Positions 3,915-24,263 of a stretch of 24,828 nt of DNA are shown here, piece after piece (position 1 is the stretch's first letter; each line of letters begins with the position of its first letter). The notes below the pieces were generated by a model that did not search any database, was not told where the DNA came from, and was given only the letters and a program-made list of their open reading frames with translations. The stretch is from a virus: positions 1 through 24,828 of the IMG/VR virus record IMGVR_UViG_3300020202_000210; one strand, 5' to 3'. The position numbers were made by a program, and so were the translations under genes.

Positions 3915-4394
3915 TCACTTCGGGTTGCGAAGCTTCTTCACCTGCTCCAGCCGCGGGTCGTAGAAGGCGTAATTGCGGCCGTCGAAGGTCACGAGGCCTT
4001 GTCGCCGGGGCACGCCTCCGCGCCGCGCGTTCTGTACGTGCACCCAGCGCCCAAACTCGAGAATGGCCTTGTCGAACGGAATCTGGCTCGCCAGGAGCTG
4101 CTCGAAGGCGTCCACGATGTTCGCGAGCTGCGGCTTAACGTCTGCCGCCCGGCCCTCCACGTGCGCGCTCTCCGGATGCCCGCCCACGCACTCATTGAGC
4201 CCGAAGCATCGGTAGCCGGAGGTGATGCGGACGAGGCCCCACAGGTTGAGGAGGGGCTCGTAGATGTCGACCGCCCAGCGCCGAGCGTTGGCGACGACCT
4301 GAGGATCGGGGTTCTCCTGCTCCTCCATGAACTCTCGGTGAGAAGTGTCCGCGAACACCTCCCACGTCAGGTGCTCTGAGAGGCGGCCTTTCAT
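3915..4394 (-). CDS. endolysin, M15 family zinc D-Ala-D-Ala peptidase
   Basis: The 159-residue protein matches the single-domain peptidase M15 endolysins. It has SAHVEGRAAD (residues 76-85) with zinc ligands His78 and Asp85 in the SxHxxGxAxD motif, ITSGYRC ahead of it, and WVHV with the third ligand His119. The enzyme would cut peptide cross-links in peptidoglycan. It has no signal peptide, so it needs the holin encoded next to it. The ATG overlaps the stop of the upstream tail protein gene (ATGA). Length is normal for the family and no cell-wall-binding domain is present, as is common for phages of Gram-negative hosts. Confidence 0.9.
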   Translation of the reverse strand: MKGRLSEHLTWEVFADTSHREFMEEQENPDPQVVANARRWAVDIYEPLLNLWGLVRITSGYRCFGLNECVGGHPESAHVEGRAADVKPQLANIVDAFEQLLASQIPFDKAILEFGRWVHVQNARRGGVPRRQGLVTFDGRNYAFYDPRLEQVKKLRNPK

Positions 4395-6823
4395 GGCGAG
4401 ATGACGGCCTTGACGAGGCCGGCGAGGTAGTCAGCGCCGGTCTGGTTGGGGTGGAGTCCGTCGCCCTGGTCGTAGGCGGTGGCGAGCGCGGCTGGGTCTG
4501 CGCCGCCCATGTTGCTGTAGGCTTCGATCTCGGTGACGCTCGCCCGGTTGCGGATGTTGGTGTTGAGCGTCTCTGTTTCGGTTTGCCGAGCCGCCGTCCA
4601 TGACGCGTCGTTTTTCCAGGGCAGGATCGTGACGGGATAAACGCTCACGCCGGCCGCCAGGGCGTCTGTGATGATCGCGTCGTAGGTCGTCCAGATGCTC
4701 GCGGCCGAAGTTCCCGCCCTCAGATCGTTCACCGAACAGAGCAGAATTAATTTTTTATTGGCCGCGTTCGTCGCCGCCAGCGCGGGCTTTACGTGGTTCG
4801 TCCACGTACTCTGGCAGTTGGAGATTAGGTGCCCGTTCGTCCCGTAGTTGCCGACGACGTGAACGGCGGAAAGCTGGCCCTGGAGCTTCGAGGGCGGGGG
4901 CGTGGTGACGCCGAAGCCAAAGGTTATGGAGTCGCCGATCCAGGCGACAGCGGTGGTGGGAGTGGTGCCGGCTCGGAAGGAGACGTCTTTGACGGCGTAC
5001 CCGTTGTTGTTGCCGTTCGCGTCCCCAAGGACGAGCATCAAGTCCGTCGAGAACGCCGGGACTGAGCCGGAGCAGGTCTCGACGCTGTCGACCGAGATGC
5101 AGGCGTTGCCGCCACGGGAGAAGCGCCAGCTTAGGTTGATGGCGGTGTTTGCCGAGAACGCATCCGCGGCACTGTCCACCGACACGCCTCCGGCGGTGAA
5201 GCGCCACACGTCGGAAGCGTGCAGGTACTTGAGGCTGATTCCGGGGCTTGAGGTGTTGAAGGCGGATGACGTGAAAATCCACTTATCGGAGCTCGGCTCG
5301 GTGTTTCCCCACTCCGGAGTAACGGTGAGCGAGCCGGAGGCCAGCGTGTTATCGAGCACGGCCCCCAGCGGAATCTTGATGCTGTCGGCGTAGGCGTTTC
5401 CGTAGGCCTGGATTGCATAGGGGGTGAGGTATTCGAAGGCCGCGATCTGCGCGCCCCACGCCCGCACCGTGCCCGTGCCGCTTGCCGTTCCAGGAAAGAG
5501 GCGGATTGCCAGGGTGTCGGTCGCGTTCACCGCCGCGGAGCTCGTGCAGTAGCAGCGGGCGTTGGCTTGCGGCCACGCGGCCGTTACCGCGCACGTGGCG
5601 GTGCAGAGGTCGCTATTGCTGGTCGTGTTCCGGAGAACGATGGACGCGTCGTGCGGCGTCGCAGCGTTGAGGAAGATGCTGGCGGTGTGCTTGGCGGTCG
5701 CGGCCGCCGTGGCGTTGGGGCTTTGGAGGTGGCCGCCGGATGCCGTGGTCGCGACCGTGTCCGCCGTGCTCCAGCCGAGCGGGCTCGACGCGTTGTCAGC
5801 CGTGACGCTCGTATTTGAGGTCGTCCAGGTGTTTAGCGTCTGGTCGGCCGACAGCAGGTTGATGATGGTGTCAGAAACGCCGATGCCCCGATCGGTGAGT
5901 CGCGGCAGCTCATCGCCATAGATGGTGAGCGTGGGCGAGGTGGATACGATGTTGTCCGTCTTCCGGACCGGCCGCGAATACGCGATGGCCGCGCCCGTTT
6001 CCGGCGTGTGCCGGAGGGCGTTTTTCATGATGGTGGCGACGCCCGTCGTGCTCCACGCGGTGGTGGTGAACCACGCCTCGACGATGTAGCCAGCGAAGGC
6101 TAGCGCGCCGTCGTCGCGGGTGCCGATCTTGGTGGTCGTGCCGGTCGAGGGCGTCCACGGGGCGACGAGTGCGCCGCTCTTTACTGCGCCGTTGTTGATT
6201 TGGACGAAGAGCGTCCCGCCGCTGCGGCCGAAGCACCCCACGTTAAGGCTGTTGGGTGAGGAGAAGCCGGTACCGCCGGTGTTGATGCTCGTCTGCCCCC
6301 CGCTCGAATACTGGAAGACCTCGAGATAGGAGTTGCCCCCGACGCCCGTGGAATTCACGCACGCCGCAAGCCCAGCCGCGCCGTTGTCGGAGTCGTTGAA
6401 GAGGCACTGATACGACCCGTTTTCGATGTGGTACCAGGCGAAACACGCGGTGAAGTCGCCCGAGAAATCGAGGGCGCTGTTTGCGTTGCTCGACGTGTAT
6501 CGGTTGGTTGCCGAGAACGGCCCCGCCCCCGGCTTCGGCGTGCTGTAGTTCGTGGTGAACGCGCCCGGCGAGGCGACCTGGGGGACGGTCCCGCCCATCG
6601 TCCACGAGAAGCCGGCGGAGTCACTTAGCGCCGTCCCGTTCCAGCTCATGTGAGAGACGGTGTTTCCGTCGCCCGGGAAGACGCGATAGTTGCCGGCCCA
6701 GGAGTTGGACCAGGTGGTAAGCGAGGCGACCTCGCTCGACGGTCCCCCGCCGTTGCGCAGCTGTCCTTGATGCGGGGCGGCGCCGAGGACCAGCAGCGCC
6801 AGCAGCGGGAGGGCGCGGCGCAT
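4391..6823 (-). CDS. large modular surface protein: leader, LamG-like, CBM-like, LamG-like, SGNH esterase
   Basis: The protein has 810 residues. Residues 1-20 are a Sec-like leader (MRRALPLLALLVLGAAP). About 60-260 is a LamG/concanavalin-like beta sandwich. About 315-470 resembles carbohydrate-binding jelly rolls of phage fibres (ending GTGTVRAWGAQI). About 480-620 is a second LamG-like domain. About 625-810 is an SGNH hydrolase: Ser632 in WIGDSITFGFG, Asn699 in SVND, and Asp788 and His791 in DGLHPN. SGNH enzymes remove acetyl or other ester groups, so this may be a tail-borne esterase acting on surface glycans. It follows the 6827-7228 gene closely. The leader is unexpected for a tail protein. 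Confidence 0.85.
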   Translation of the reverse strand: MRRALPLLALLVLGAAPHQGQLRNGGGPSSEVASLTTWSNSWAGNYRVFPGDGNTVSHMSWNGTALSDSAGFSWTMGGTVPQVASPGAFTTNYSTPKPGAGPFSATNRYTSSNANSALDFSGDFTACFAWYHIENGSYQCLFNDSDNGAAGLAACVNSTGVGGNSYLEVFQYSSGGQTSINTGGTGFSSPNSLNVGCFGRSGGTLFVQINNGAVKSGALVAPWTPSTGTTTKIGTRDDGALAFAGYIVEAWFTTTAWSTTGVATIMKNALRHTPETGAAIAYSRPVRKTDNIVSTSPTLTIYGDELPRLTDRGIGVSDTIINLLSADQTLNTWTTSNTSVTADNASSPLGWSTADTVATTASGGHLQSPNATAAATAKHTASIFLNAATPHDASIVLRNTTSNSDLCTATCAVTAAWPQANARCYCTSSAAVNATDTLAIRLFPGTASGTGTVRAWGAQIAAFEYLTPYAIQAYGNAYADSIKIPLGAVLDNTLASGSLTVTPEWGNTEPSSDKWIFTSSAFNTSSPGISLKYLHASDVWRFTAGGVSVDSAADAFSANTAINLSWRFSRGGNACISVDSVETCSGSVPAFSTDLMLVLGDANGNNNGYAVKDVSFRAGTTPTTAVAWIGDSITFGFGVTTPPPSKLQGQLSAVHVVGNYGTNGHLISNCQSTWTNHVKPALAATNAANKKLILLCSVNDLRAGTSAASIWTTYDAIITDALAAGVSVYPVTILPWKNDASWTAARQTETETLNTNIRNRASVTEIEAYSNMGGADPAALATAYDQGDGLHPNQTGADYLAGLVKAVISP

Positions 6824-6826
6824 TCG

Positions 6827-7228
6827 TTACCTCATCAACTTGGCCTGGCAGCGGCCAGAGGCGGCGGAGTCGAGGATGAACGAAACCCGGGTGGCCGAAG
6901 ACGTTGGCCCCATGGATTCCACGACCACCGTCTTTTTTGGAAGGAACGTATCCCCCGCCGCGGCGGTGACGCTGGAGTCGCCCATCTTGTAATAGGCGTC
7001 TTCGGTGCAGAGGAGGCGGACGAGCGCATAGGACGGGAGGTCCGATGCCGTCCGCGCCGCGGCGGCGTTGGACATGGTCGTCACGTCGGCGGGGGAGTCC
7101 GCGAGAACGGCATGGCCGAAGACGCGCGGGATCACGCCCTGGAAGTTATTGTTGCCGATGGCCTGAGCCACCCCGATAAAGCTCAGCCCCACCACGAGGC
7201 CGAGGACTCCGATTGCGACTTTCTTCAT
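6827..7228 (-). CDS. small exported beta-sandwich protein, probable virion or surface accessory
   Basis: The 133-residue protein has a textbook signal peptide: MKK, a hydrophobic core VAIGVLGLVVGLSFIG, and AQA as a cleavage site after residue 23. The mature part contains SYALVRLLCTEDAYYKMGDS, then VTAAAGDTFLP and VSFILD. This pattern resembles small beta-sandwich proteins encoded among phage tail or decoration genes, where 'yfk.Gds.vta...d.fLp' is common. The ATG has AGGAG a few bases upstream. Two Cys in the mature part could form a disulfide after export. It lies between two fibre-like genes and may associate with them; that role is inferred from position. Confidence 0.65.
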   Translation of the reverse strand: MKKVAIGVLGLVVGLSFIGVAQAIGNNNFQGVIPRVFGHAVLADSPADVTTMSNAAAARTASDLPSYALVRLLCTEDAYYKMGDSSVTAAAGDTFLPKKTVVVESMGPTSSATRVSFILDSAASGRCQAKLMR

Positions 7229-7243
7229 GACTCTCCTCGTTGG

Positions 7244-8467
7244 TTAGGGTTGGAAGACGCGGACGCGGAAGTTGCCGGAGCCCTGGTCCCAGGCCCCGCC
7301 GGTCAGGTTGCAGAGACGCACTTGGACGGTGTCCGCTGCGCTCACGTGGCAGTCCACGAGGGCGGCCACGTCGCCCGCACCGCCCAGGTCGGCGTCGGGG
7401 GACACCGTGCAGACGCCGCCCGGAGAAACACCGGTAAGGGTCTGCGCGGACAGCGAGCACACGCCGCTCGTGGCGATGTTTGGGAAGTCGATCACGTAAG
7501 TGGCGCCGTAGCTCGCCGAAATCGGCGTGCCGGTAGCGCCGATGGTCAAGCCGTCGTTGCCGATGCTCGCTCGCGTGGTGACGGTCGCCGTATCCCCGCC
7601 AGTGCCGCTTGCAGCGGTCTGGAAGAAGACGCGCGCCGCGGTAGTTGCCGTAACAGCAACCCCGGCGGCGTTGGTGTCGTATTTCCAATCCGTGCCGTCG
7701 AAAGTGAGGTTGAACCCGAACCCCGACGACGTGGCCGAGGCCATGGCCGCCATGGGGAAGCGGCTGCTAGCCTTCCAGCGCTGATAGGTCCCGCCGACCT
7801 GAGAGGCGACCTCTATCGGATAGGTCGGTGTCCCCCCGACACCGAAGAGCCCGCCGCTCGCAAGCTGGAGCGTTCCGGTGTTCGTGAGCTTGAGCCGCTC
7901 GGTGAGCGTGGCGACCGCTGCGGCTGTGCCGCTGCTCGCCATCTTGAAGAGCAGCGCCCCGTTGGAGTCAAAGAGGAGCTGCCCGCCCTCGTCGGTGGTG
8001 TCGTAACGGTAATCGGTGCCGTCAAAGGTAAGGTTGAAGGAGAGCGTGGAGTTGGTGCCGAACAGGTTGTGATCCCCGATGAGGCTGGATGTGGTGTGCG
8101 CCGTCCACTTCGCCACCCCGCCGCCGCCTGCGCTCATGCGCACGTCATCGGCGCCCGCCCGGTAAAGGCCGGTGTTTGTGTCGGAGGTAAAGGAGAGCGC
8201 CGGAGCCGCTGCGGTCCCGTCAATTCCTCGGAGGGCGGCGAGCATGCCTCCACGGCCGGAGCGGTCGAGGGACGATGTGATTTCCGTGGCGAGGTCGGAA
8301 AGGGTGTTGTTCGCCCAGGTGCTCGAGATGGTCTGCCCGGAGACGACCGGGTTGCCCGAGGGCAGAGAGTAAGTGCCCCCGGAGTTACGGGAGGCCCAGG
8401 CCGGGAGCATGAAGGCGACGGCGACGCCCAGCGTGATCCCGAGGATGATTGCGGCGGCTCTTTTCAT
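7244..8467 (-). CDS. tail-fibre-like protein with signal peptide
   Basis: The 407-residue protein opens with a hydrophobic leader (residues 4-22) and an AWA cleavage-like site near 26. Residues 31-75 (GTYSLPSGNPVVSGQTISST and WANNTLSDLATEITSSL, then RSGRGGM) match the segment found at the N-terminus of many podovirus fibre and structural proteins. It is followed by FTSDTNTGLYRAGADDV, another common phage-fibre motif. Two homologous repeats, 144-202 and 252-310, each begin FNLTFDGTD. The C-terminus (about 325-407) is a Cys-containing beta domain. The ATG overlaps the upstream stop (ATGA). It is probably a receptor-binding fibre; the leader ahead of the usual attachment segment is odd. Confidence 0.85.
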   Translation of the reverse strand: MKRAAAIILGITLGVAVAFMLPAWASRNSGGTYSLPSGNPVVSGQTISSTWANNTLSDLATEITSSLDRSGRGGMLAALRGIDGTAAAPALSFTSDTNTGLYRAGADDVRMSAGGGGVAKWTAHTTSSLIGDHNLFGTNSTLSFNLTFDGTDYRYDTTDEGGQLLFDSNGALLFKMASSGTAAAVATLTERLKLTNTGTLQLASGGLFGVGGTPTYPIEVASQVGGTYQRWKASSRFPMAAMASATSSGFGFNLTFDGTDWKYDTNAAGVAVTATTAARVFFQTAASGTGGDTATVTTRASIGNDGLTIGATGTPISASYGATYVIDFPNIATSGVCSLSAQTLTGVSPGGVCTVSPDADLGGAGDVAALVDCHVSAADTVQVRLCNLTGGAWDQGSGNFRVRVFQP

Positions 8468-10014
8468 CGGACACCTTGCATAGAGGCGAGGGTTTCGGCG
8501 TCCTTCTGTGGGTCGCCGGTGTAGAGGCCCAGGGCTTCGAGCAGCTCGCGTTGGGCGGTGACCTGGGTACCGCGGCCGAGGGCTTCGCTGGCGCCAGCCG
8601 GGACGCGGCTTCCGATGGCGGCGGCGGCGCGGGGGAGTGCCTTCAACCCACCGCCGGCCGCGTTGGCGAGGCGTGCGCCGGCCTGTGCGCCGTACTTATT
8701 GGCCATCTGCGCGGCGACGGCTCCCGCCAGCGCGCCCGGCCCTCCGCCCAGGCTCGTGCCCAGACCGGCGCCCGCCAGCGTATGGATGTTTTGCAGGAGG
8801 TTGTTTCCGGTCGAGCGCGCCGCCGTTCGTTTGGCCGCGCCGGTCGCGTTTAGGAGTCGCCGAAAGGCGAGGTTGGCCTCACCGAAGGCCGGCCCCACCG
8901 CCTCGTCGAGCTGCTGATCAACGGCGCGCTCGAACCTGGCGAGCCCCTTCGCGTACTCGCCAACGGCATGGACTCCCGTCCGCTCCGCCTCCTCCCCGGC
9001 GCCGTACGCGGCGTCGCCGAGGACGCGCTTCAACCGGAGCGCCTCCGACGCCGGGACCGGCTTCCCCGCGTAGCGCGCTTCATACTCTCCAATCAGTTCG
9101 GCAAGCCGCTGGCCCGTCCCCTTGGTGGTGGGCTCTGCCATTAGTTCGGAGGCGTTGCCCTTGGCTGCAGCGATGGCCCTGTCGAGGACAATGGGCTTGC
9201 CGCCCTGCGAGTCGTAGGCGGAGACGACGTCATCGATTTCCTTGCTGGCGGCCTGCTTGGCGGCCTCTAGCTGCTTAAGGGTGCCCTTTTTCGTCAGGCC
9301 GCCGATGCCGCGCTTAAGCACCTCGCGCCCCACCGCCGCCTCGCCGCCCGGGAGCGCCTCCATCGCCTCCGCAACCAGCGGGGTCGGCTTGAGGCTCGTC
9401 ACCTTGAGCTTGCCGCCGAGGTTTTGGAGTCCCTCACCGAGCCCGCCGACCATCTTGGTCGCGAGCGGCAGGGCCTTCGACGCGACGGCGTGGCCGGCCC
9501 CGCCGAGAACGAAATTGGTGGCCCCCTCCACCGCGGCGTTCTTGAGCGACTCGCCCACCGTGTCGCCGGTGCCTGCGCCGTGCGCGACGCCATACGCGCC
9601 GGCATTCTTGGCCGTCGCCAGCGCCCGGGGGAGTAGTCCGGCGCCCTGCGCGGCCTTGAATGGCATCGCCGCGCTAGACAGGACCGCCCCGCCGACCTTG
9701 CCAGCCGTGGTCAGGCCCGGATTGTCCCGCTCGGACTGCGCGAGCTTCTCCCGCTGCCGCGCGAGCTGGCCGGCGTAAGACGCGTCCATGTCCTGGTAGG
9801 CGGGGTTGCTCGACAGCGCCTTGACGAGCCTAAGAGCACCCGCGGTGCCGAGCGCCGAAAGCTTTTCGCCGAAAGGGATGGCGTCCACACCGCCGCGCAG
9901 GGCGGACTCGCCGCCCGCCATCTTCTGCCCCTGGGGCTTTTCGTCGGACAAGAAGCCGTCCGGGTCGAAGCCCTTGGGCGCATCGGACAGGAACGCGTCG
10001 GGGTCGAAGCTCAT
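8464..10014 (-). CDS. internal/ejection-type virion protein with duplicated FDPDxFLSD motif
   Basis: The 516-residue protein is Ala/Gly-rich and mostly helical. The N-terminus carries two copies of a short motif, FDPDAFLSD (3-11) and FDPDGFLSD (16-24). The same kind of acidic 'FDPDxyL' tag opens many large podovirus internal or polyvalent proteins. The middle (about 240-400) is charged and coiled-coil-like. The part around 405-470 is Gly/Ala-rich and moderately hydrophobic (AGAGLGTSLGGGPGALAGAV), possibly membrane-interacting. Its position after the nozzle and two other helical proteins suggests a protein packed in the head and ejected with DNA. The start overlaps the upstream stop (ATGA). 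Confidence 0.7.
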   Translation of the reverse strand: MSFDPDAFLSDAPKGFDPDGFLSDEKPQGQKMAGGESALRGGVDAIPFGEKLSALGTAGALRLVKALSSNPAYQDMDASYAGQLARQREKLAQSERDNPGLTTAGKVGGAVLSSAAMPFKAAQGAGLLPRALATAKNAGAYGVAHGAGTGDTVGESLKNAAVEGATNFVLGGAGHAVASKALPLATKMVGGLGEGLQNLGGKLKVTSLKPTPLVAEAMEALPGGEAAVGREVLKRGIGGLTKKGTLKQLEAAKQAASKEIDDVVSAYDSQGGKPIVLDRAIAAAKGNASELMAEPTTKGTGQRLAELIGEYEARYAGKPVPASEALRLKRVLGDAAYGAGEEAERTGVHAVGEYAKGLARFERAVDQQLDEAVGPAFGEANLAFRRLLNATGAAKRTAARSTGNNLLQNIHTLAGAGLGTSLGGGPGALAGAVAAQMANKYGAQAGARLANAAGGGLKALPRAAAAIGSRVPAGASEALGRGTQVTAQRELLEALGLYTGDPQKDAETLASMQGVR

Positions 10015-11402
10015 CGAGCCCCCCGCAGGCGCTCAATCTTCGCCTTAACCGCCCCCGCTCGCGGATCGTTCGGGTTGGCCTTGAGCCAGGCGTCCGCCTG
10101 CTCGAGCTCCGGGTTTGCGGCGTTGTCCGGCCGGCCCTGCTGGCCGCCGTAGAGCCCGCCCGTAATCTCCTTGAGGGCCTCGCGCGAGTATCCGTCCGCC
10201 TCAAGGGACCCCGCTTGGCGTCCGATCTTGTCGTCAACGATGCGGAGCAGCTTGGAGAACGTCTCGCGGACGATCTTGGGGCTGGTCTTCGGGGAGATGT
10301 TGCGCGCGTTTTCCCAGGACTGTTTTTCGCCCGCGGAGAGCGAGGCCCCGAAGATCTCGTTGCGGGCCGGCAACTCGATCAGCCGCTGGAAGTCCGCCCA
10401 GAACTGCGCGTCCTCCTGCATCGCCTCCGTGCCCGCGCTGCCCAGCATCTGATTGACGCTGGTGCGGAGACCGCCCGCCACCTTGCCCGCGTAGTCGTCC
10501 TTGAAGCGCGCCGACAAGTCAGCCAGGTTCTGGCGCTCGGTGGCGAGCCCACCAAGAATGGTCCGGTCCCCCTGACCCAGCGGTTTGCCCTGCTTGACGA
10601 CCGGCTTGCCGTCGGGGCCGGTGACCGGCGTGGCTCTCCCGTCGCGCGGGTTGAATCCGAACGCCTGACCATCGTTGCCGAAGAAGAGATGCAGACCGGC
10701 GGGGTTGTTCTCGCGCGCCTCCAGGCCCCGGAGCTTCAGCGCGGTATCAATGACCTCCTGCGCGTCCTGCCGGGTGGCGTCGGGTCGCAACGGCGCTTTG
10801 AGCTTCTGCGCCATGGCGCGCTGCTCGGGGGTCGCCGGGCCGGTCAAGCGCGCGCGCTCGCGCTCGGCGTCGCCGATCTTCCCCTGGTTAAGCGCGAGCT
10901 CTTGGTCGGTATGCTGGAGCTTCTTCGGCCGCAGGGTGCGCTCAAAGACGCGCTCCTCGGTTCCTCGCCCCCACTTCGACAGGTCCCCGCCCTGACTCAC
11001 GAGCGGCTGATACCCGGTGGACTGGAACACTGCGGCGACGCCCTGTGCGTCTTGCTGGGCCTGCGCAATGCGCGCCGGGTTCCCCGAAGCCTCCGCGTCC
11101 GCCAACGCCCGCTCGGCGGCGGCCCGCTGTTGGGCGGCGAGCGACAACCCCAACTTGCGCTTCTCGCCCAAGCCGCGCTGCTGCTGGTCGAGCTTGCGCG
11201 CGTGGAAGTCGCCGGCGATGCGGTTTAGGGCCGCAGCCGCGTTTCGCCAGACAGGCGAGATGTAGTGTCCGGAGACCATCTCGCCCTGCGAGAAGGGCGC
11301 CTCCTGCATGCCGCGCAGCTGCTCGCGCCGCTTGGCAAGGCTCTGCTCCTCCACGTCGAGGAGCCCCAGATCCATTAACTGCTGCAGGGTGTCGGCATCC
11401 AT
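10011..11402 (-). CDS. helical internal virion / DNA-ejection-type protein
   Basis: The 463-residue protein is rich in Ala, Gln, Arg and Glu, with long predicted helices (about 55-125 and 150-200). Mixed segments such as LHLFFGNDGQAFGFNPRDGR are followed by a second helical half (about 280-400). There is no signal peptide or enzyme motif. Together with its two neighbours it forms the set of three successive helical proteins found after the tail nozzle in podoviruses, which in T7- and P22-type phages form the ejection apparatus. The ATG is 8 nt after the previous stop. The specific role is inferred from position and composition. Confidence 0.7.
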   Translation of the reverse strand: MDADTLQQLMDLGLLDVEEQSLAKRREQLRGMQEAPFSQGEMVSGHYISPVWRNAAAALNRIAGDFHARKLDQQQRGLGEKRKLGLSLAAQQRAAAERALADAEASGNPARIAQAQQDAQGVAAVFQSTGYQPLVSQGGDLSKWGRGTEERVFERTLRPKKLQHTDQELALNQGKIGDAERERARLTGPATPEQRAMAQKLKAPLRPDATRQDAQEVIDTALKLRGLEARENNPAGLHLFFGNDGQAFGFNPRDGRATPVTGPDGKPVVKQGKPLGQGDRTILGGLATERQNLADLSARFKDDYAGKVAGGLRTSVNQMLGSAGTEAMQEDAQFWADFQRLIELPARNEIFGASLSAGEKQSWENARNISPKTSPKIVRETFSKLLRIVDDKIGRQAGSLEADGYSREALKEITGGLYGGQQGRPDNAANPELEQADAWLKANPNDPRAGAVKAKIERLRGAR

Positions 11403-11411
11403 GCGCGCCCC

Positions 11412-12380
11412 CTACTCGAAGAATTTGAGAATGGCCGGCAGCGCCTCCAGGCCCGCGCTGATCATCCCGGCGCGGTTGGCGTTGTTGGCGTTTGCGGCCC
11501 CGACTTGTGCGCCGTATGCCTGGCCGAGCGCACCCACGAGGTCCGGCGTCTGGGCCATGCCCGCACGGTGGTAGTCGGGCATTTGGAGCGCCTGCTGCAG
11601 CATCATCAGCTGCTGAAACGGCGCCATCCGGCTCGTCAGGTCCATCTGCTGCGCGCGCTGCCCTTCCGCGCCGCCGAAGATGATCGAATCGTTCATGGCG
11701 TTCGCGTAGGCGTCGTTGCGCTCGCGCCCCAGAGCGGCGGTCATCGACTGCGCGGCTTCGTCGTTGGGCGCGAATCCCTGGTTTTCGAGCCGGGTGCGCA
11801 TCTGCGCCTCGCGCTGCTGCCACATCGGATCCAGGCGGGATGATGCGCGTTGGAAGTGCGCGTCTTCGGCGCGCTGGCGGGCGGTAGCGCCGTTGTCGAG
11901 CGCCTCGCGCAACGAATTTTGAGACTGCCCGGCGAGCTGGTTAAAGATGCCCTGCATTGGCTCGGAAAGCTGGCTTTCCTGCCGCCACGAGCCATCGGGG
12001 TTACGGTGCCAGATGGACTGGCCGAACGCGGAGGACTGGCTCGCTCGGTTGGCCGCGGTCTGGTCGAGCCAGTCTTCGCGGGCCATGTTGCCCTGATGCC
12101 CGGCCATGCCGACGAAGTCGGGAGGAGCCGGCACGCCGCTTCCCCCGAACATGTCCTTCATCTGTTCCCACATCCCGCGTCCCTGCCAGCCGGTCATTGC
12201 CCCGGCCGCCGCCTGATTCCGGCTGACGGTGTCTTCGCCCTCGGGCTGCCACACGCCACGGGCAGCCCCCCACGCTCCCTGCGCCCCATCGCGGATGCCG
12301 TTCCAGGCGCCCCCCGCCGCGTTTCCGGCTGCCTGCCCGCCTTGCCGCGCAGAACCGCCCAGCCAGTCAAAAAAACCCAT
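11412..12380 (-). CDS. internal virion protein, podovirus type
   Basis: The 322-residue protein has a Gly/Ala/Trp-rich N-terminus (MGFFDWLGGSARQGGQAAGN). The central segment (about 180-235) with SSRLDPMWQQREAQMRTRLE, NQGF and ERNDAYANAMNDS is a pattern I recognise from phage internal proteins ('rLdp...qre.al.t.L.nqG..pg...'). It is followed by Gln/Met-rich helices and an Ala/Asn-rich tail. It has no enzyme motif. The ATG shares the A of the nozzle stop (TAATG). It is probably part of the ejectosome or a tail-tip plug. Confidence 0.7.
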   Translation of the reverse strand: MGFFDWLGGSARQGGQAAGNAAGGAWNGIRDGAQGAWGAARGVWQPEGEDTVSRNQAAAGAMTGWQGRGMWEQMKDMFGGSGVPAPPDFVGMAGHQGNMAREDWLDQTAANRASQSSAFGQSIWHRNPDGSWRQESQLSEPMQGIFNQLAGQSQNSLREALDNGATARQRAEDAHFQRASSRLDPMWQQREAQMRTRLENQGFAPNDEAAQSMTAALGRERNDAYANAMNDSIIFGGAEGQRAQQMDLTSRMAPFQQLMMLQQALQMPDYHRAGMAQTPDLVGALGQAYGAQVGAANANNANRAGMISAGLEALPAILKFFE

Positions 12381-14323
12381 TAGAGAAGCCCTCCCTGTTT
12401 GTAGGCGGCATCAAGCCCCACGAGCACCGTGCGGCTCGTGGCCGTTCCGCGGATGGCGATGGCGAATTCGCTTCCAATCCCGACCGCCCCACCCACCTGC
12501 TGCGTCGCTGAGTACTCACCGCCCCACACGGCCGAGTCCCACACGCCGGAATCCCAGGCGCTCGAGCCGAAGGCCCCCGGTGACACGCTGTCCACCTCGG
12601 CGAGCGAGTAGCGATAACGAGCCTCGGCGGTGAATGCGGGATTGCCCCCGTCGCAGAGCACGGTCGGGCGGATAATCTGCACCTGCTTCTGGTTGGCGTT
12701 CCCGAAGTTGTGGAAGCCGGTCAGCAAGCGCCACTGAATCGCGGTGTACGCGCTCGGGTCCGCCAGCGTCACGCCGTCGACGTAGCCGGAGTTTTTGCAA
12801 ACCTTCCCGTCCGGCGTGCCGTAGTAAAGCGTTCCATCAAAGGCGTCGCAGGAGAGCAGGTCGAGGTCGCGGTATTCCGTCCACGCCTTAGACGACAGCG
12901 ACATGGCCGCTTGTTCCGTCTCCGAGCCGTCGTAGGTCGGGATGGTGACGATGAGAGCGTTGTCCTCGGGATGGATGCGCGCGGACCAGCCGTCGAGGCT
13001 GTAACGGCTCGAAGGCAGCCGGTTGAAGAGGTTGGCAATCGGGGCCGTGCTGTATTGGTTCGAACCGGAGACGAGGTCGGAGACCGCTACCGGCCCGCCG
13101 CGGGTGATGATGAGCACATCCCCGCCGTGGCTCGTCGCGAACCGGCGGCCCTTCGGCACCTGCCCCACCGACCACACGCCCTTGAGCCCGAACAGCAGCG
13201 AATCGGTCGGGTCGGTGCCCTCGTAAATGACCACGTCCCCGCCGCCAGAGATGGCCACCAAGCGGTCATCGATGCCGGCCCCGCCGTCGCCGGTCCAGTT
13301 CCAGAGGCCCCGAAGGTCTCCGCCCTGGCGAAACTTGGAGCCGAGGTTGAAGGAGGTCGCGGCACCGGAAACGGCGGCGGTGTCGAGGTACCAGGCCTTC
13401 GCCGAGTCGCGCTGCACGAACCACAGGCGCTGTTTAAAGACGGTGCACGCGACGAGGTTTGCCGGGTCGACCCCGTTTATCTGCCCCGCGCCCGCGCCGG
13501 AGGTGTACTTGACCCACGTGTCGCTCGACTCGGTGTAGAGGTACGCGCCGTTGACCTCGTCGCAGTAAACGAGGAAGTGCCCGGCGGTGGTGACGAGCGT
13601 TGTGCAGACACCCCAGCCCGCGCGCCCCGTGGTCGTCGCGAAGGCGAGCTCGAGCACGGGAGCGGTGTTGTTGGAGACGTACCGCCAAGTCACCGTGCCG
13701 TCAGAGACCGACGTTTCCGCGGACTGGTAATCCCAAACGACAGTGCCATCGGTGATGCCGGTGCCCGTTCCCGAGGGGCCATCCGCGCCGGCCGAGGTGC
13801 CGCCGGTGGTGCAGATGTAGACGTTATTGCTGTTCCGGACTCGGTCCCCGATGACGTAAGCGGTCGTTGCGGCCCAGGTCGCAGGGAGCCCGCCCGAAGC
13901 CGCAGAGGTCCCCGCGGTCTTGCACGCGTAGGTATTGCTGTTGCTCGTGACGTGAGCGCCAACGGTGTACGCGGTGGCTCCGGCCCAAACCGTCGTCGGG
14001 GCGCCTTGGCTCGTCACATCCCAGATGCCGGAAGACGTGGTGGCGAAGAGCCGGTTTTGCCCCGAGCCATCGGAGCCCATGAACGGGATGATGGTCCGGA
14101 CCGTATTGTCAGAGGCACCTGTTAAGCCGGTCACCCACTCTTGAGACCCGAGCCGCGCCCGCAGCCCAGCATCCGAGGATATGAGGTTGTAGGCGCGGAG
14201 GCAGTGGGTAAGCGGAATCTGGCTCGCAGGCGAAAGCGTATCGAGTCCACCGACCGGAGCGGGGAAATGCACGGTCGCAACCGTTGACGGGAAGGCCCGT
14301 CGAGCGGAAGCGCGAGGGCTCAA
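12380..14323 (-). CDS. tail nozzle / stabilisation-type protein with CBM-like insert modules
   Basis: The protein has 647 residues from a TTG at 14323 that overlaps the adaptor stop. A GTG at 14272 (sequence MHFPAPVGGLDTLSP) is an attractive alternative start. The beta-rich body (GGLDTLSPASQIP, GVWSVGQVPKGRRFATSHGG, NALIVTIPTYDG) fits podovirus nozzle proteins of the T7 gp12 / P22 gp10 type, which close the tail tube. Inserted at about 112-150 and 150-199 are two tandem short modules of the form 'W...taYtvGd.V.n...tY.ct..Gts', a CBM5/12-like pattern, with a third partial repeat (DGTVTWRYV) ending near 216. The modules may bind glycans at the tail tip. Confidence 0.75.
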   Translation of the reverse strand: MSPRASARRAFPSTVATVHFPAPVGGLDTLSPASQIPLTHCLRAYNLISSDAGLRARLGSQEWVTGLTGASDNTVRTIIPFMGSDGSGQNRLFATTSSGIWDVTSQGAPTTVWAGATAYTVGAHVTSNSNTYACKTAGTSAASGGLPATWAATTAYVIGDRVRNSNNVYICTTGGTSAGADGPSGTGTGITDGTVVWDYQSAETSVSDGTVTWRYVSNNTAPVLELAFATTTGRAGWGVCTTLVTTAGHFLVYCDEVNGAYLYTESSDTWVKYTSGAGAGQINGVDPANLVACTVFKQRLWFVQRDSAKAWYLDTAAVSGAATSFNLGSKFRQGGDLRGLWNWTGDGGAGIDDRLVAISGGGDVVIYEGTDPTDSLLFGLKGVWSVGQVPKGRRFATSHGGDVLIITRGGPVAVSDLVSGSNQYSTAPIANLFNRLPSSRYSLDGWSARIHPEDNALIVTIPTYDGSETEQAAMSLSSKAWTEYRDLDLLSCDAFDGTLYYGTPDGKVCKNSGYVDGVTLADPSAYTAIQWRLLTGFHNFGNANQKQVQIIRPTVLCDGGNPAFTAEARYRYSLAEVDSVSPGAFGSSAWDSGVWDSAVWGGEYSATQQVGGAVGIGSEFAIAIRGTATSRTVLVGLDAAYKQGGLL

Positions 14324-15042
14324 GAGCCGAACCCCGTGTCAGGCACGATTGGGTCACGCAGGCCCGAGGACCCACCGGCGAGCCTGAGCGCGGGGGCCGC
14401 GCCGTCCTGGCTCGCGACCTGCTGGTAGCGCTCGTCGAAGTCGTCCTGTGCCGCCGAGGTGTCGAGCCCCTTCTGGCGGAGCCACTTGAGCTTGAGCGCC
14501 CGGAGGAAAAGGAGCGGCTCAAAGTGGATGGTGTCGGTGTTCGCGGTGGGTCGGTCGGTGGTGGGCGCCGACTGCCCCGAGGGCTTCACCCAGTAGCTCG
14601 AGATGTACTCATAAGCCGCGGTCTGCGCGCTCGACGGGGTCGGGTGAAACCAAAGCTCGTTATTTACGATGCGGACATACAGCGTGTAGGTCCCCGAGAC
14701 CGACCGCGCCTGGAAGTCCTGCCACTCGAGCGAGTCCACCGGCCCGCCGAGCGGGAGCTGGGTGGTGCGATTCCAGCCGCTCCCGTCGATGTAGCGGGCG
14801 AAGTCGTTGGGGAGCGCGTAGACGTACGTCCCGTTGACCAGCGAAACGGTCGTCTGCTTCTTGAGGTGCGACCAGTCGCGCTTGCCCACAAGCTCCCGGC
14901 CCACCGAGATGGCGAGTTGCCGGAGGAGCACCACGTTTTGATCGTTGGAGCCGTACGGATCGCCCAGGCTCGTGACGAGCCCAAGCTCGATGGCGGCGTC
15001 GGCCAGGATGGTGCCGATTGTCTCGAAGCTAACGCCAGCCAT
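14320..15042 (-). CDS. tail adaptor protein (head-to-tail), gp11/gp4-like
   Basis: The 240-residue protein starts MAGVSFETIGTILADAAIEL and contains ISVGRELVGKRDWSHLKKQ, VNGTYVYALPNDFARYIDGS, WQDFQARSVSG and NNELWFHPTPSSAQ. The order of helices, then 'yaLP.DF.r...', then 'l.f.P.p.s' is typical of podovirus tail adaptor (tubular protein A-type) proteins that attach below the portal. Its position directly before the nozzle gene supports the call. The ATG at 15042 has only a weak ribosome-binding site. Confidence 0.75.
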   Translation of the reverse strand: MAGVSFETIGTILADAAIELGLVTSLGDPYGSNDQNVVLLRQLAISVGRELVGKRDWSHLKKQTTVSLVNGTYVYALPNDFARYIDGSGWNRTTQLPLGGPVDSLEWQDFQARSVSGTYTLYVRIVNNELWFHPTPSSAQTAAYEYISSYWVKPSGQSAPTTDRPTANTDTIHFEPLLFLRALKLKWLRQKGLDTSAAQDDFDERYQQVASQDGAAPALRLAGGSSGLRDPIVPDTGFGS

Positions 15043-16253: not shown

Positions 16254-17213
16254 TTAGCTGAAGATCCCGCGGCCCTGGAACTTGGCGCCGGACATGGTGA
16301 GAGCGCCGGCCCACGCTAGGTGCGTGACCTCGGCATCCTGGTTGAAGCTCTCGCGCTTCTTCAGTGGGACCATGTTCCGGTCCTTGTGGGGCCGGAAGTG
16401 GAGGTAGTTGGTGTTGAGGAAGTACATCGTGGTCGCGCTCGCCGCGCCGCCGATGCCGCCACCGAGGACCACCGGCGCGCTCATGAACGAAACGGCCTTG
16501 AAGCCCGCGTCGGCCATCTTCGAGTCAGTCACGCGCTGGATGTCCTGCAGCGACGCCATGAATGTGGTCCATACCGTCCCGCCCGCGATGATGAGGTCGG
16601 GGCTGTCGTTGCCTCGGGTGCAGGATGCCCACAGCGCGGTCATCTCGGCCTGGATGGTGTCCGCGGTGGGGGTCGACGCCGGGTCCTGCGTCTGGTTGCG
16701 CCAGAAGGAGTAGTTGGCGCGGTTGATCCCGCCGACCGTGCCGGTCGAGGGGGACGAGGCCACGAGCGAGTCGAGACCCACAAGCTGCTTGCCGCCGGAG
16801 CCCGTGCCGTCCGAGAAGAGACCGACTTCCAGGTCATTCTTCATGGTCGCCTTCGCCACCTTGATGCGGCCGGCGACGAGGTCGATCACCTGCTCCTTCG
16901 AGCTGTTCTGCAGCATCTCAAGGCCGGAGACCGGCACCGCGACGCTGTACTGCTTGATCGAGTACTCCGCGGCGCTGATGACGTCCTGCGCACCAACGGC
17001 CAGCGTGTCGTATCCGGAGTACCAGTCGCCGTTGGTGTTCTCGGCAAAGGACAGCGGCTCGTAGATGATCCGGCCGCCGGAAAACGGGCGAACGTTGCCT
17101 TTCTCGGAGAGCTTCAGAAGCAGAGCGATGTTGTTGGTGACGTTGTCAGCGATTTCGGGTGAGCGATGCTCGAGTGTCGTCGCGATGATGTCCGAAACGT
17201 TCGGGAAGGCCAT
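16254..17213 (-). CDS. major capsid protein
   Basis: The 319-residue protein, with GGAG 5 nt before the ATG, matches the major capsid type found after a scaffold gene in many tailed phages. Recognisable segments are SGGRIIYEPLSFAENTNGDW, WYSGYDTLAVG, AEYSIKQYSVAVPVSGLEML (long helix/beta region), GLFSDGTGSGGKQLVGL and TMYFLNTNYLHFRPHKDRNM. These fit an HK97-fold capsid protein with E-loop, spine helix and P-domain, without a fused protease or delta domain. A separate scaffold gene precedes it. I see no prohead protease in this window. Confidence 0.85.
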   Translation of the reverse strand: MAFPNVSDIIATTLEHRSPEIADNVTNNIALLLKLSEKGNVRPFSGGRIIYEPLSFAENTNGDWYSGYDTLAVGAQDVISAAEYSIKQYSVAVPVSGLEMLQNSSKEQVIDLVAGRIKVAKATMKNDLEVGLFSDGTGSGGKQLVGLDSLVASSPSTGTVGGINRANYSFWRNQTQDPASTPTADTIQAEMTALWASCTRGNDSPDLIIAGGTVWTTFMASLQDIQRVTDSKMADAGFKAVSFMSAPVVLGGGIGGAASATTMYFLNTNYLHFRPHKDRNMVPLKKRESFNQDAEVTHLAWAGALTMSGAKFQGRGIFS

Positions 17214-20899: not shown

Positions 20900-22330
20900 T
20901 TAGATTCGCCTCGTGGTCGGACGGGTGCGCTCGTATTCGGCCCAAAGGTCATCAAGCGTCGCTTCCACGCGCGGCGGAGCGGCCGGGGCGGGCTTGCGGG
21001 TCAAAAGCTCGGAGTGCTTAAAGACGAGCGCGGCGTAGCGGAACGCGTCGGCGCTATGGCTCGCCCAGTTGTGCACGGGGTTCGGGGAGAAACAGCGGTT
21101 CTCCTCGTCCCACTCGAACCGGTATTCGCGCAGCGCATCGACGCCCGACCACTCGAGTCGCTCAGTGGGCTGCGTACAGCGGGGGTGGATGCGGGTCTTT
21201 TGCTCGAGCAGCCAGCGGGCCGCCGCGATGCCGTCTTTAACCGCCAGCATGGGGGCGATAGCGACCTTGCCCGAGCCCCAGCGCTGCAGGCACTGGTCTA
21301 GGACGCTCGCCTGGGTGGCCAGGGTCTTCTGCTTCGCGTCGTGCGGGAGCCAGTGGCGCTCGTATTCGTAGCCCCGCCGATCGACCACATCGAAGAAGTG
21401 GGAGAGCCCGCGCCCGTGGGCCTCGTAGTGGTCGATTACGTCCGCCACGCCCCACTCATTGACGCGCCAGAACCAGATCGAGGTCGAGTCTGAGCGCCCG
21501 AGGTCCCAGGACGTGAACACGCCGTCTGTCGGGTGGTCGAAGGCCTCAAGTCCGCCGCGCGCTTCGAGCTGGGAAATCCAGGCGCCGAAGATGCTGCCTA
21601 CGTCGCTCGACGGGTATTGGCCGTCGACGTAGGACCGCACCCACTCCGAATCCTTGCCGTGGCAGAGTCGGTCGTAATAGCCGGGCGGGAGGTTTTCGAC
21701 GTTCTCCGCCTCGGGCGACCGACCACCCGGCTGCTCGTACAGCTCGTAACCCGGGGGTTTGGTCTTACTGAAGAGCTTGTAACCCCAATGCCCCGTATGC
21801 CACGGGTTCGTGTCCAGCCAGATGCCGAACCACGTAGGCCCGCCCTGCATCTTCGCCGGGTAGCGGCCCACGCGCGTCTCGAGCACGTCGAGGATGTGCT
21901 TCGGTATCTCCCGCGCTTCGTTGATGTACGCGCCGGTGAGCTCGAGAGAGAGGAGCTTCTTCACGTCCTCCGGGCGGTCTAGCGCGCGGAAGAGCACCTC
22001 GCTTTGCACGCGCGTGCCGTCCGGGTGGGGAAAGTCGATATGGAAAGCGAATTGCTGCTCTTTCCACTCGCCCAGCGCGTCGGGCACCCACTGCTCGAAG
22101 GTCTTCCGGGTGGTGTCCCGTAGCTGCGAGTAGGTGTTCCGGATGATGGCGAAGCGGGTGCGGCGGATACCGTCTTCGCTGGGCGCCTGCTCGACCGCTC
22201 GACGGAGGATTTCGACCACGCACCCGGACGACTTGCCGGAGCCGACCGGGCCGACGCAGCAGCGGACGAACGCGGTGCTTTGGAGGAAGCGGCCGACCGT
22301 CGCGGGCGCGTTGTATTGGACGCGCACCAT
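20900..22330 (-). CDS. terL: terminase large subunit
   Basis: The 476-residue protein has a Walker A motif GPVGSGKSS (27-35), a Walker B-like ELTGAYINEA (catalytic Glu138) and a coupling-type segment FGIWLDTNPW. The C-terminal nuclease domain has Asp276 in FTSWDLGRSDSTS and Asp428 in SHSADAFRYA, with a likely third acid near 297-300. The protein pumps DNA through the portal and cuts the concatemer. I chose the ATG at 22330 because it overlaps the stop of the upstream fibre (TGATG). A start at 22351 would add seven residues inside the fibre gene. The family placement (pac or cos) cannot be read here. Confidence 0.92.
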   Translation of the reverse strand: MVRVQYNAPATVGRFLQSTAFVRCCVGPVGSGKSSGCVVEILRRAVEQAPSEDGIRRTRFAIIRNTYSQLRDTTRKTFEQWVPDALGEWKEQQFAFHIDFPHPDGTRVQSEVLFRALDRPEDVKKLLSLELTGAYINEAREIPKHILDVLETRVGRYPAKMQGGPTWFGIWLDTNPWHTGHWGYKLFSKTKPPGYELYEQPGGRSPEAENVENLPPGYYDRLCHGKDSEWVRSYVDGQYPSSDVGSIFGAWISQLEARGGLEAFDHPTDGVFTSWDLGRSDSTSIWFWRVNEWGVADVIDHYEAHGRGLSHFFDVVDRRGYEYERHWLPHDAKQKTLATQASVLDQCLQRWGSGKVAIAPMLAVKDGIAAARWLLEQKTRIHPRCTQPTERLEWSGVDALREYRFEWDEENRCFSPNPVHNWASHSADAFRYAALVFKHSELLTRKPAPAAPPRVEATLDDLWAEYERTRPTTRRI

Positions 22331-23985
22331 CAGAATCCCGACACCATGCATTGGCCCGCGAAGTCGATGGTGGGCGCGGCGGCGTTAGAGCCGGCGTTGT
22401 TGTAGAGCTCCCAACCCAAAGGCTGCGTCGTCGCCGGCAGGTCGCTGGAGATGGTCCCCGTTGTCGAGTTGGCGGAATCGTGGCGCTGTATCCCGTAGGA
22501 GACCGACGAGGAGTTGGGCGGGGCCCAGAGATAGATGGTGTACAGCGCGCCTACTGTCTTCGCGGGGTAGCTCGCCCCCAGGCTGTTACAGGTGGCTGTT
22601 CCGGACGAGTCGTTGCTGCAAATCGAAAGGTTGGTGTTCGCCGAGTCCACCGCGAACCCAATCATGTTGGTGTCGGCCGAAGGGTCGCCGGTTCCGGACG
22701 ACATCACCGAGGTGCTGGCGCGGAGCCCCGCGAAGACGCGGGCGGTGGAGTTGCTCGTGCCGATGGCGAAGCTCGCCCACCAGAAGAACCCGCCCGCCCC
22801 GGAAACATCCCCGCGCCACATGCCTTGGGCGTTTTGGAACACGCGCACGTAAGCGTTGGCGCCGCTTGTTGCGGCGTAGCGGACACGGATGGTCCGCCCG
22901 AGGGTCGTGTTCGCCCAAGACTGTCCGGTTGCCGCGAGCCCTGTGGTTCCTGCGGTGCTGTTGTTGCCGAGCCCCCAGTGGCTGATGGTGGAGTTGTTGA
23001 AGCCGACCGGGAGGCTGCAGCCGTAACGCGCCATGATGGCGCTCGTGAACGGGAACCCCATCGCATAGGAAAGCTGGTGCTGCGCGTCGATTGCCTTGAG
23101 GAACTTCGGCAGCACGATCGCGCCATTGCGCCGGGCGAATACCTTGATGGTTGAGCTGTGGGCGGCAGGGTCCGTGTCCTGGGAGCCCACGATGAGGTCG
23201 ACGCCGTCGGTCAGGATGTTGTTGATGCCGTCGAGGTTGCCGCCGTTGTTGAATTGAACTTGTCCTGTGGTGCCGCCGGCGAGCTTAGAGATGGTGCAGT
23301 TGGTTCGGCTGTTCGCCGCGTCGTCGGCGCAGGCCACCCCGGAGCCCGTGAAGTTGATAGAGCTGCGCGCCGTGAGCGGTGAGCCCTCGTCCCGTACGGT
23401 CGTGATCGTGTTGCTCGGGGCACCGGAGAGCTCGGAATAGGCAACCTGGCCACAGCTCAGGTTGCCGCTTGCCGCTATGGCGTTGGCGTATTGCCCGGCA
23501 GAGCAGTCGGTCGGGTTGGCAGCAAGCGCGGTGGCCGAGGCGACCGCGGATGTGATGTCCCCACCAGCGTGATTGTGCGACGCCGCTGCGACCGCAAAGC
23601 ACCCCTCCGACGCTCCAGAGGCATCGACCCCCAGGGGCGCGTTCCCGGCTGCGCAGTTGGCTCCGTTGGCGGAGAGCTGGGAGACCCCACCACAGGTGAG
23701 CGCCCCGCTCGCGTTGGTGCTCGTCGCGTACTGGTTCGCCCCGCACGAGCTCCCGGCGTACGCCCCGAACCCACCAGCCCCGTCGTTCGTCTGGAGGTTC
23801 CCCGAGGCTCCGCCCGGAGAGCCTGAGCCCCCGGAAGCGGAGATGGCCGCCTTGCCGCCCGAGACCGTGCAGGTGACGTTGGCGCCGCAGTTGAGGGTGT
23901 GTGCTTGGCCCTGGGTGGTGCCGCCCTGCTGGATACGGATGGCGGGCGGGTTCGTTGCGAGGAGCAGGAGGAGGAGGGCGCTCAC
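22330..23985 (-). CDS. tail-fibre-like protein with hydrophobic leader, inserted between terminase genes
   Basis: The 551-residue protein starts with a GTG that overlaps the previous stop (GTGA). Residues 1-11 (MSALLLLLLAT) form a short hydrophobic leader. About 75-190 is a set of imperfect Cys-containing repeats of the form 'CxaGqYan.i.asGnlsCgqv' (for example CSAGQYANAIAASGNLSCGQ). GGTTGQVQFNNGGNLDGINN is a common fibre motif. The C-terminal half (about 350-550) resembles lectin-like fibre tips (ADTNMIGFAVDSANTNLSIC, YLWAPPNSSSVSYGIQRHD). It is a probable adhesin. Position between small and large terminase genes is unusual for a fibre. Confidence 0.8.
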   Translation of the reverse strand: MSALLLLLLATNPPAIRIQQGGTTQGQAHTLNCGANVTCTVSGGKAAISASGGSGSPGGASGNLQTNDGAGGFGAYAGSSCGANQYATSTNASGALTCGGVSQLSANGANCAAGNAPLGVDASGASEGCFAVAAASHNHAGGDITSAVASATALAANPTDCSAGQYANAIAASGNLSCGQVAYSELSGAPSNTITTVRDEGSPLTARSSINFTGSGVACADDAANSRTNCTISKLAGGTTGQVQFNNGGNLDGINNILTDGVDLIVGSQDTDPAAHSSTIKVFARRNGAIVLPKFLKAIDAQHQLSYAMGFPFTSAIMARYGCSLPVGFNNSTISHWGLGNNSTAGTTGLAATGQSWANTTLGRTIRVRYAATSGANAYVRVFQNAQGMWRGDVSGAGGFFWWASFAIGTSNSTARVFAGLRASTSVMSSGTGDPSADTNMIGFAVDSANTNLSICSNDSSGTATCNSLGASYPAKTVGALYTIYLWAPPNSSSVSYGIQRHDSANSTTGTISSDLPATTQPLGWELYNNAGSNAAAPTIDFAGQCMVSGF

Positions 23986-24263
23986 TTCTTCCCTCCGGCC
24001 AGGTTGATCTCGATGCTCACCTTGAGCGGGCCGCCGTCAGGACCGGAGTGCTCGTGCTTCTGGGCGAGCGGGCCGTTTACTTCCTCGCGGATGACGTTGC
24101 AGGCCTTGAGAACCATCGCCGCCATCTGCGGCTCGACCTCTTCGAGCAGCACCCGGGAGACCTGGCGCTCGACCGTGGCGATGGCTTCGAGCTCGGCGGG
24201 GTCGGCGTCCTTGGGGACGCGGCGGCGGATGAACTTGAGGGCTTTGACCGAACCACGTGGCAA
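23982..24263 (-). CDS. putative small terminase subunit (start uncertain)
   Basis: The protein has 93 residues from a TTG at 24263. It contains PRGSVKALKFIRRRVPKDAD, a helical ELEAIATVERQVSRVLLEEV and AMVLKACNVIREEVNGPLAQ, and ends EHSGPDGGPLKVSIEINLAG. 'K.eh.G.dGGPl.v.i' closing the chain is common for small terminase subunits, which recognise the packaging site. Its place upstream of terL fits. The frame is open upstream to a TGA near 24356 and encodes a basic GRRGGRREGAGRPPGVLEPL segment that looks protein-like, so the true start may lie near an ATC at 24335. The whole N-terminal DNA-binding domain seems short for the family. Confidence 0.55.
   Translation of the reverse strand: MPRGSVKALKFIRRRVPKDADPAELEAIATVERQVSRVLLEEVEPQMAAMVLKACNVIREEVNGPLAQKHEHSGPDGGPLKVSIEINLAGGKK

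Follow-up and report, generated by a model that had tools for sequence, protein, structure and literature searches.

The stretch of DNA analysed here in its full length of 24,828 nucleotides (the window; IMG/VR record IMGVR_UViG_3300020202_000210) reads, from its gene content and Pfam/PHROG matches, as a 24.8-kb contig of a temperate podovirus. An integrase gene lies at the left end on the plus strand, and the minus strand carries genes for terminase, portal, capsid, tail, internal virion proteins, a fibre module and endolysin. The capsid protein shares 61% identity with that of Myxococcus phage Mx9 and 59% with that of Mx8, and it is from similarity to these two phages that the host of the window phage is deduced. 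The features on which the analysis draws, all on the minus strand, are as follows.

22330..23985, minus strand: 551-aa fibre-like protein with a hydrophobic leader and 14 Cys; GTG start with a good SD site; C-terminal part corresponding to phrog_13925
16254..17213, minus strand: major capsid protein (phrog_9953), which placed the phage with Mx8/Mx9
14320..15042, minus strand: tail protein without leader, probable hub/tubeA partner of the fibre (phrog_6013, E=3e-47)
12380..14323, minus strand: 647-aa tubeB-like tail protein without leader (phrog_5107, E=2e-96), syntenic with Mx8 p52
8464..12380, minus strand: three internal virion/ejection-type proteins (516, 463 and 322 aa) without leader and without Cys (PHROG matches, N-terminus scan, Cys counts)
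7244..8467, minus strand: 407-aa tail fibre with a Sec leader; ORF with an ATGA overlap with the stop of the preceding gene
8393..8467, minus strand: 25-aa leader of the fibre, MKRAAAIILGITLGVAVAFMLPAWA then SRN, with an AWA/SRN cleavage-like site (homologue comparison)
8156..8392, minus strand: conserved N-terminal adaptor domain of the fibre (SRNSGGTYSLPSGNPVVSG...), from two alignments and the survey of 136 fibres
6827..7228, minus strand: 133-aa small protein, leader MKKVAIGVLGLVVGLSFIGVAQA then IGN, 2 Cys; strong SD site GAGGAG
7160..7228, minus strand: 23-aa leader of the 133-aa protein with an AQA site before IGN
4391..6823, minus strand: 810-aa protein with a leader, a C-terminal GDSL/SGNH hydrolase (Pfam PF13472) and 12 Cys; SD site GAGGT
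6779..6823, minus strand: leader of roughly 15-17 aa on the 810-aa protein, MRRALPLLALLVLGA then APHQ, with an LGA/APH site
4433..4939, minus strand: GDSL/SGNH hydrolase domain (Pfam), with motifs GDSITFG ... VND ... DGLHPN from the translation
3915..4394, minus strand: endolysin (Pfam Peptidase_M15_3), its start overlapping the stop of the 810-aa gene

The 407-, 133- and 810-aa genes thus lie inside the late cluster, between the internal virion proteins and the endolysin. The initial annotation had described Sec-like leaders on these three consecutive products, two of them with AQA or AWA sites, and our reading agrees in coordinates, lengths and leaders, the AWA belonging to the 407-aa and the AQA to the 133-aa protein. 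All three N-termini have K/R at positions 2-3 and a 9-residue hydrophobic core. A fourth leader had been overlooked: the 551-aa protein begins with MSALLLLLLATNPPA, a weaker leader with no basic residue, and the homologues of this protein elsewhere are 355 aa long and leaderless. Its gene lies between a small gene (23982-24263) and the large terminase gene, an odd location for a fibre gene. Besides these four, none of the further late genes of the window encodes a Sec-type leader. The cleavage sites in the 810- and 551-aa leaders are weaker than the A-x-A of the fibre and the AQA of the 133-aa protein. Leaders were scored with a rule-based n/h/c-region score devised for this analysis, not with SignalP, and the evidence is otherwise comparative. 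On this score three consecutive genes among about 21 late genes reach 4.8-5.2, whereas only 4 of 753 well-started ORFs of leaderless relatives exceed 4.5, two of those being spanin-like; given this background, a chance occurrence of three consecutive leaders is very unlikely.

The PF13472 match in the 810-aa protein covers residues 629-797 (E=1.1e-12; 49.3 bits against a cut-off of 32.9), and the GDS block (GDSITFG) and the D-x-x-H block (DGLHPN) are both present. The protein shares fold family and motifs with extracellular GDSL/SGNH hydrolases (PF13472) but belongs to a leadered late module of a phage. No relatives of it were found in the phage or viral collections searched, and the 133-aa protein has no Pfam or PHROG family and no relatives among the viral contigs searched. 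The quality of the AlphaFold models for the 407-aa (pLDDT 44.5) and 810-aa (pLDDT 34.3) proteins was too low to support fold searches. A CBM_5_12 carbohydrate-binding match was also seen within the tail protein at 12380-14323.

The fibre leader stands in front of a domain that opens many phage fibres, with the consensus RNxxGTYxLPxGNPVVxGTxIxxxWANxTL after the AWA. We surveyed 136 unique fibres sharing this adaptor domain, counting as leadered neither L281, an apparent leader produced by a start mis-call, nor L178, a frameshifted remnant. The great majority (121/136) are leaderless and start at the domain itself, two residues before R[N/D] and nearly all with M[P/S/A]R. Podovirus fibres of this leaderless kind include those of BUCT555, ppBjS10J-1 and most IMG/VR relatives. 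Twelve of the 136 carry a leader of 19-48 residues, and in 12/12 an A-x-A lies at exactly -3/-1 before [T/S/A/G]-R-[N/S], while at any different offset it occurs in at most 1/12. Ala makes up 22% of leader residues, and even seven independent cases would arise by chance with a probability of about 6e-10. The junction residue in the leadered fibres is T, S, A or G, never Met. As the initial annotation had noticed, the leader of the 407-aa protein precedes a segment normally found at the very start of fibres, and the leaderless homologues begin exactly there. The initiator methionine is normally lost when P, S or A follows it, and the start residues of all 121 leaderless fibres are compatible with such removal, so that the predicted mature N-termini of leadered and leaderless fibres coincide. 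That the leader ends exactly where leaderless relatives begin suggests that the receptor-binding parts leave the cytoplasm before reaching the particle.

Over residues 1-123, leader included, the 407-aa fibre shares 61% identity with Mx8 p64 and 59% with the Mx9 tail fibre, and the leader is shared by the Mx8, Mx9 and Myxococcus sp. CA023 fibres with only conservative hydrophobic changes. A scan of 195 Myxococcota genomes found phage fibres in CA023 (G001), G029, G036, G038 and G123, all leadered; with Mx8 and Mx9, 7/7 clean Myxococcota cases carry the leader, Mx8, Mx9 and CA023 being close kin. The CA023 prophage looks degraded: its leadered fibre frame is short, and the ORF behind it is similar to a group II intron reverse transcriptase (L171:8001-10127). 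A frameshifted remnant in Corallococcus (G002) was left out of the counts, and a match in G057 (L321:3925-4998), a Myxococcota signal-peptide protein weakly resembling the adaptor domain and lying outside any visible prophage, was excluded as a phage fibre. Every clean leadered fibre of known host comes from Myxococcota, whereas in hosts outside this phylum 0/13 are leadered (11 genomes, Stenotrophomonas phage BUCT555 and Bradyrhizobium phage ppBjS10J-1).

Four leadered metagenomic contigs have no assigned host (L091, L094, L218 and L257). We do not extend the restriction to Myxococcota to these, as composition is uninformative: the leaderless L007 is the most Myxococcota-like and L094 the least. 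Nor does the adaptor-domain tree favour a single origin of the leader. It requires six changes of leader state, at least two of them forced by supported branches, as where leadered L257 stands beside leaderless L007, although few columns enter the tree. A leader rule for all myxophages is contradicted by the contractile-tailed Mx1 and Mx4, which share the host of Mx8 and Mx9 and in which none of the tail genes inspected encodes a leader; the trait therefore belongs to the phage type and not simply to the host. Separately, in a phage with a leaderless fibre, a serine-rich protein of 819 aa begins with a Sec-type leader (MKGLLALLLMGTAVAQ; L232:14202-16661).

The leadered fibre does not stand alone. 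In the window, Mx8 (p64-p67), Mx9 (p14, p15) and one Myxococcota prophage (G123), small proteins and GDSL hydrolases that likewise have leaders come after a leadered fibre bearing this adaptor domain. In Mx8, p66 and the GDSL protein p67 are leadered and the gene for the leadered small protein is frameshifted in the deposited sequence; on the plus strand opposite annotated p65 lies a leadered but frameshifted counterpart of Mx9 p15 (MRRVLLLALVALPALAGQ; L086:19855-20180). Probably either p65 is mis-annotated or the small-protein gene is broken. In Mx9 a single leadered protein fuses the small protein to the GDSL domain, and in G123 additional leadered proteins, including a GDSL hydrolase, lie downstream of the fibre. 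The Mx8 and Mx9 proteins are annotated merely as hypothetical or tail fibre. The window differs from both phages in the C-terminus of its fibre, in having a GDSL protein of 810 aa, and in the additional leadered 551-aa protein. In the L094 phage a leadered fibre is accompanied by a leaderless pectate-lyase-type protein (L222:11006-12778).

Cysteine is also about 3-4 times as frequent in the leadered proteins as in the other late proteins. Per 1000 residues, leadered mature proteins contain 17.5 Cys against 6.4 in other late proteins in the window, 20.0 against 4.4 in Mx8 and 16.2 against 5.0 in Mx9; the value for leadered mature proteins in G123 is 22.2. All four leadered window proteins have even Cys counts (2, 4, 12 and 14). 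Among fibres alone the difference is modest (7.3 leadered versus 3.8 leaderless; p=0.03, uncorrected for kinship). This enrichment fits folding in an oxidising compartment, without proving it, and together with the cleavable-looking leaders it backs export, which the initial annotation had listed among its explanations, as the best reading of the leadered proteins.

The leaders, their fixed cleavage register, the conservation of the module, its cysteine enrichment and its distribution are read from sequence, and from them we infer export, cleavage and docking. The best explanation, which we consider probable, is Sec export and cleavage of the receptor-binding module, which would be oxidised outside the cytoplasm and join the virions at lysis. 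The Mx8-type podoviruses of Myxococcota, and very likely the window phage with them, would produce the fibre, small proteins and GDSL hydrolase as late proteins, each with a Sec signal peptide that can be cleaved off. Signal peptidase I would cut the leader at the start of leaderless homologues, giving an exported fibre with a normal adaptor N-terminus; that the leadered fibre is exported and cleaved seems to us highly probable. The cysteine-rich module may then fold and oxidise outside the cytoplasm. Lysis would mix periplasm and cytoplasm, and docking would have to come after it.

With less confidence, we consider it likely that the mature fibre ends on virions. For this podovirus group, published work treats the fibre N-terminus as the conserved hub-binding part and tubeA as a major attachment point (PMC10386132). 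Residues of the adaptor domain are invariant in leadered and leaderless fibres alike, and within the window the domain occurs only in the leadered 407-aa protein, at the usual position after the internal virion proteins; this conservation, the lack of a second such protein and the published role of the N-terminus argue for a fibre destined for the particle. On balance we favour docking of the mature fibres at lysis, through the adaptor domain, on particles made in the cytoplasm, so that attachment would be the last, extracytoplasmic step. Counterpoints to the explanation as a whole are the leaderless pectate-lyase-type protein of L094, the modest Cys difference among fibres alone, and the leaderless Mx1 and Mx4, which imply that the host does not demand leaders.

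There are partial parallels. Coat proteins of filamentous phages carry Sec signal peptides and are exported before assembly, but these phages assemble at the membrane, whereas the window phage is tailed and its head and tail hub genes are leaderless. The P22 tailspike is the final component to join a particle that is otherwise complete, which resembles the proposed late joining of a receptor-binding protein, but it is cytoplasmic and has no signal peptide. To our knowledge, fibre export ahead of assembly is unusual among tailed phages. The literature searched, subscription papers excepted, yielded nothing on signal peptides in myxophage fibres and no virion proteomics for Mx8-type fibres.

The main alternative, which we regard as unlikely, is that the exported products do not join virions: fibre, small proteins and GDSL esterase would instead work on the infected cell's envelope, where they mask, deacylate or destroy the receptor, so that superinfection, or renewed adsorption of progeny to debris, is lessened. 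The superinfection exclusion, free esterase and decoys of the initial annotation are, like assembly onto virions after export, possible outcomes of exporting the module. The entire module is leadered, an esterase-type enzyme included, and SGNH enzymes are plausible receptor-modifying enzymes. However, a module acting solely on the envelope sits poorly with a tail-hub adaptor domain equally conserved in leadered and leaderless fibres, and would leave the window phage with no second adaptor-bearing fibre for its virion. The location of the genes in the late cluster argues against a purely lysogenic role.

Retention in the inner membrane by hydrophobic N-termini that stay uncleaved, one of the possibilities listed in the initial annotation, is improbable. 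The weaker cleavage sites of the 551- and 810-aa leaders and the long, 48-aa leader of G029 would suit an anchor, but a lasting one is contradicted by the A-x-A found in 12/12 fibre leaders at one fixed position, exactly the leaderless start; in the window the hydrophobic stretch is followed by A-x-A in the fibre and by AQA in the 133-aa protein. More improbable still is a signal for loading or assembly into the particle in place of Sec, as with the cargo of contractile injection systems. N-terminal loading sequences have reportedly been described for PVC cargo (work cited in PMC13314943), but the n-region, hydrophobic h-region and A-x-A fit Sec and signal peptidase I, and the leader sequences diverge yet stay hydrophobic. 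Chance or mis-annotated starts are hardly credible: hydrophobic reading frames are common in high-GC DNA, but good SD sites, the 4/753 background, conservation of the leader in Mx8, Mx9 and CA023 and the missing Met at the junction speak against both, and on the SD sites and the junction we reject mis-called starts.

Export with late docking thus being the reading that we prefer, we put forward more tentatively, at slightly less than even confidence, that a lineage of tailed phages finishes its virions outside the cytoplasm, with fibres and esterase exported by Sec, cleaved, oxidised and attached only after lysis, and that this was gained more than once in Myxococcota podoviruses. In the textbook view, tailed phages assemble entirely in the cytoplasm, fibres included. 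With its precisely placed, conserved signal peptide, the fibre of Mx8, a model transducing phage, opens all-cytoplasmic assembly to direct testing in a standard laboratory system. Fibre export could also account for the oxidation of cysteine-rich phage fibres, and an A-x-A before the adaptor start offers a simple sequence mark by which further exported phage fibres may be sought.
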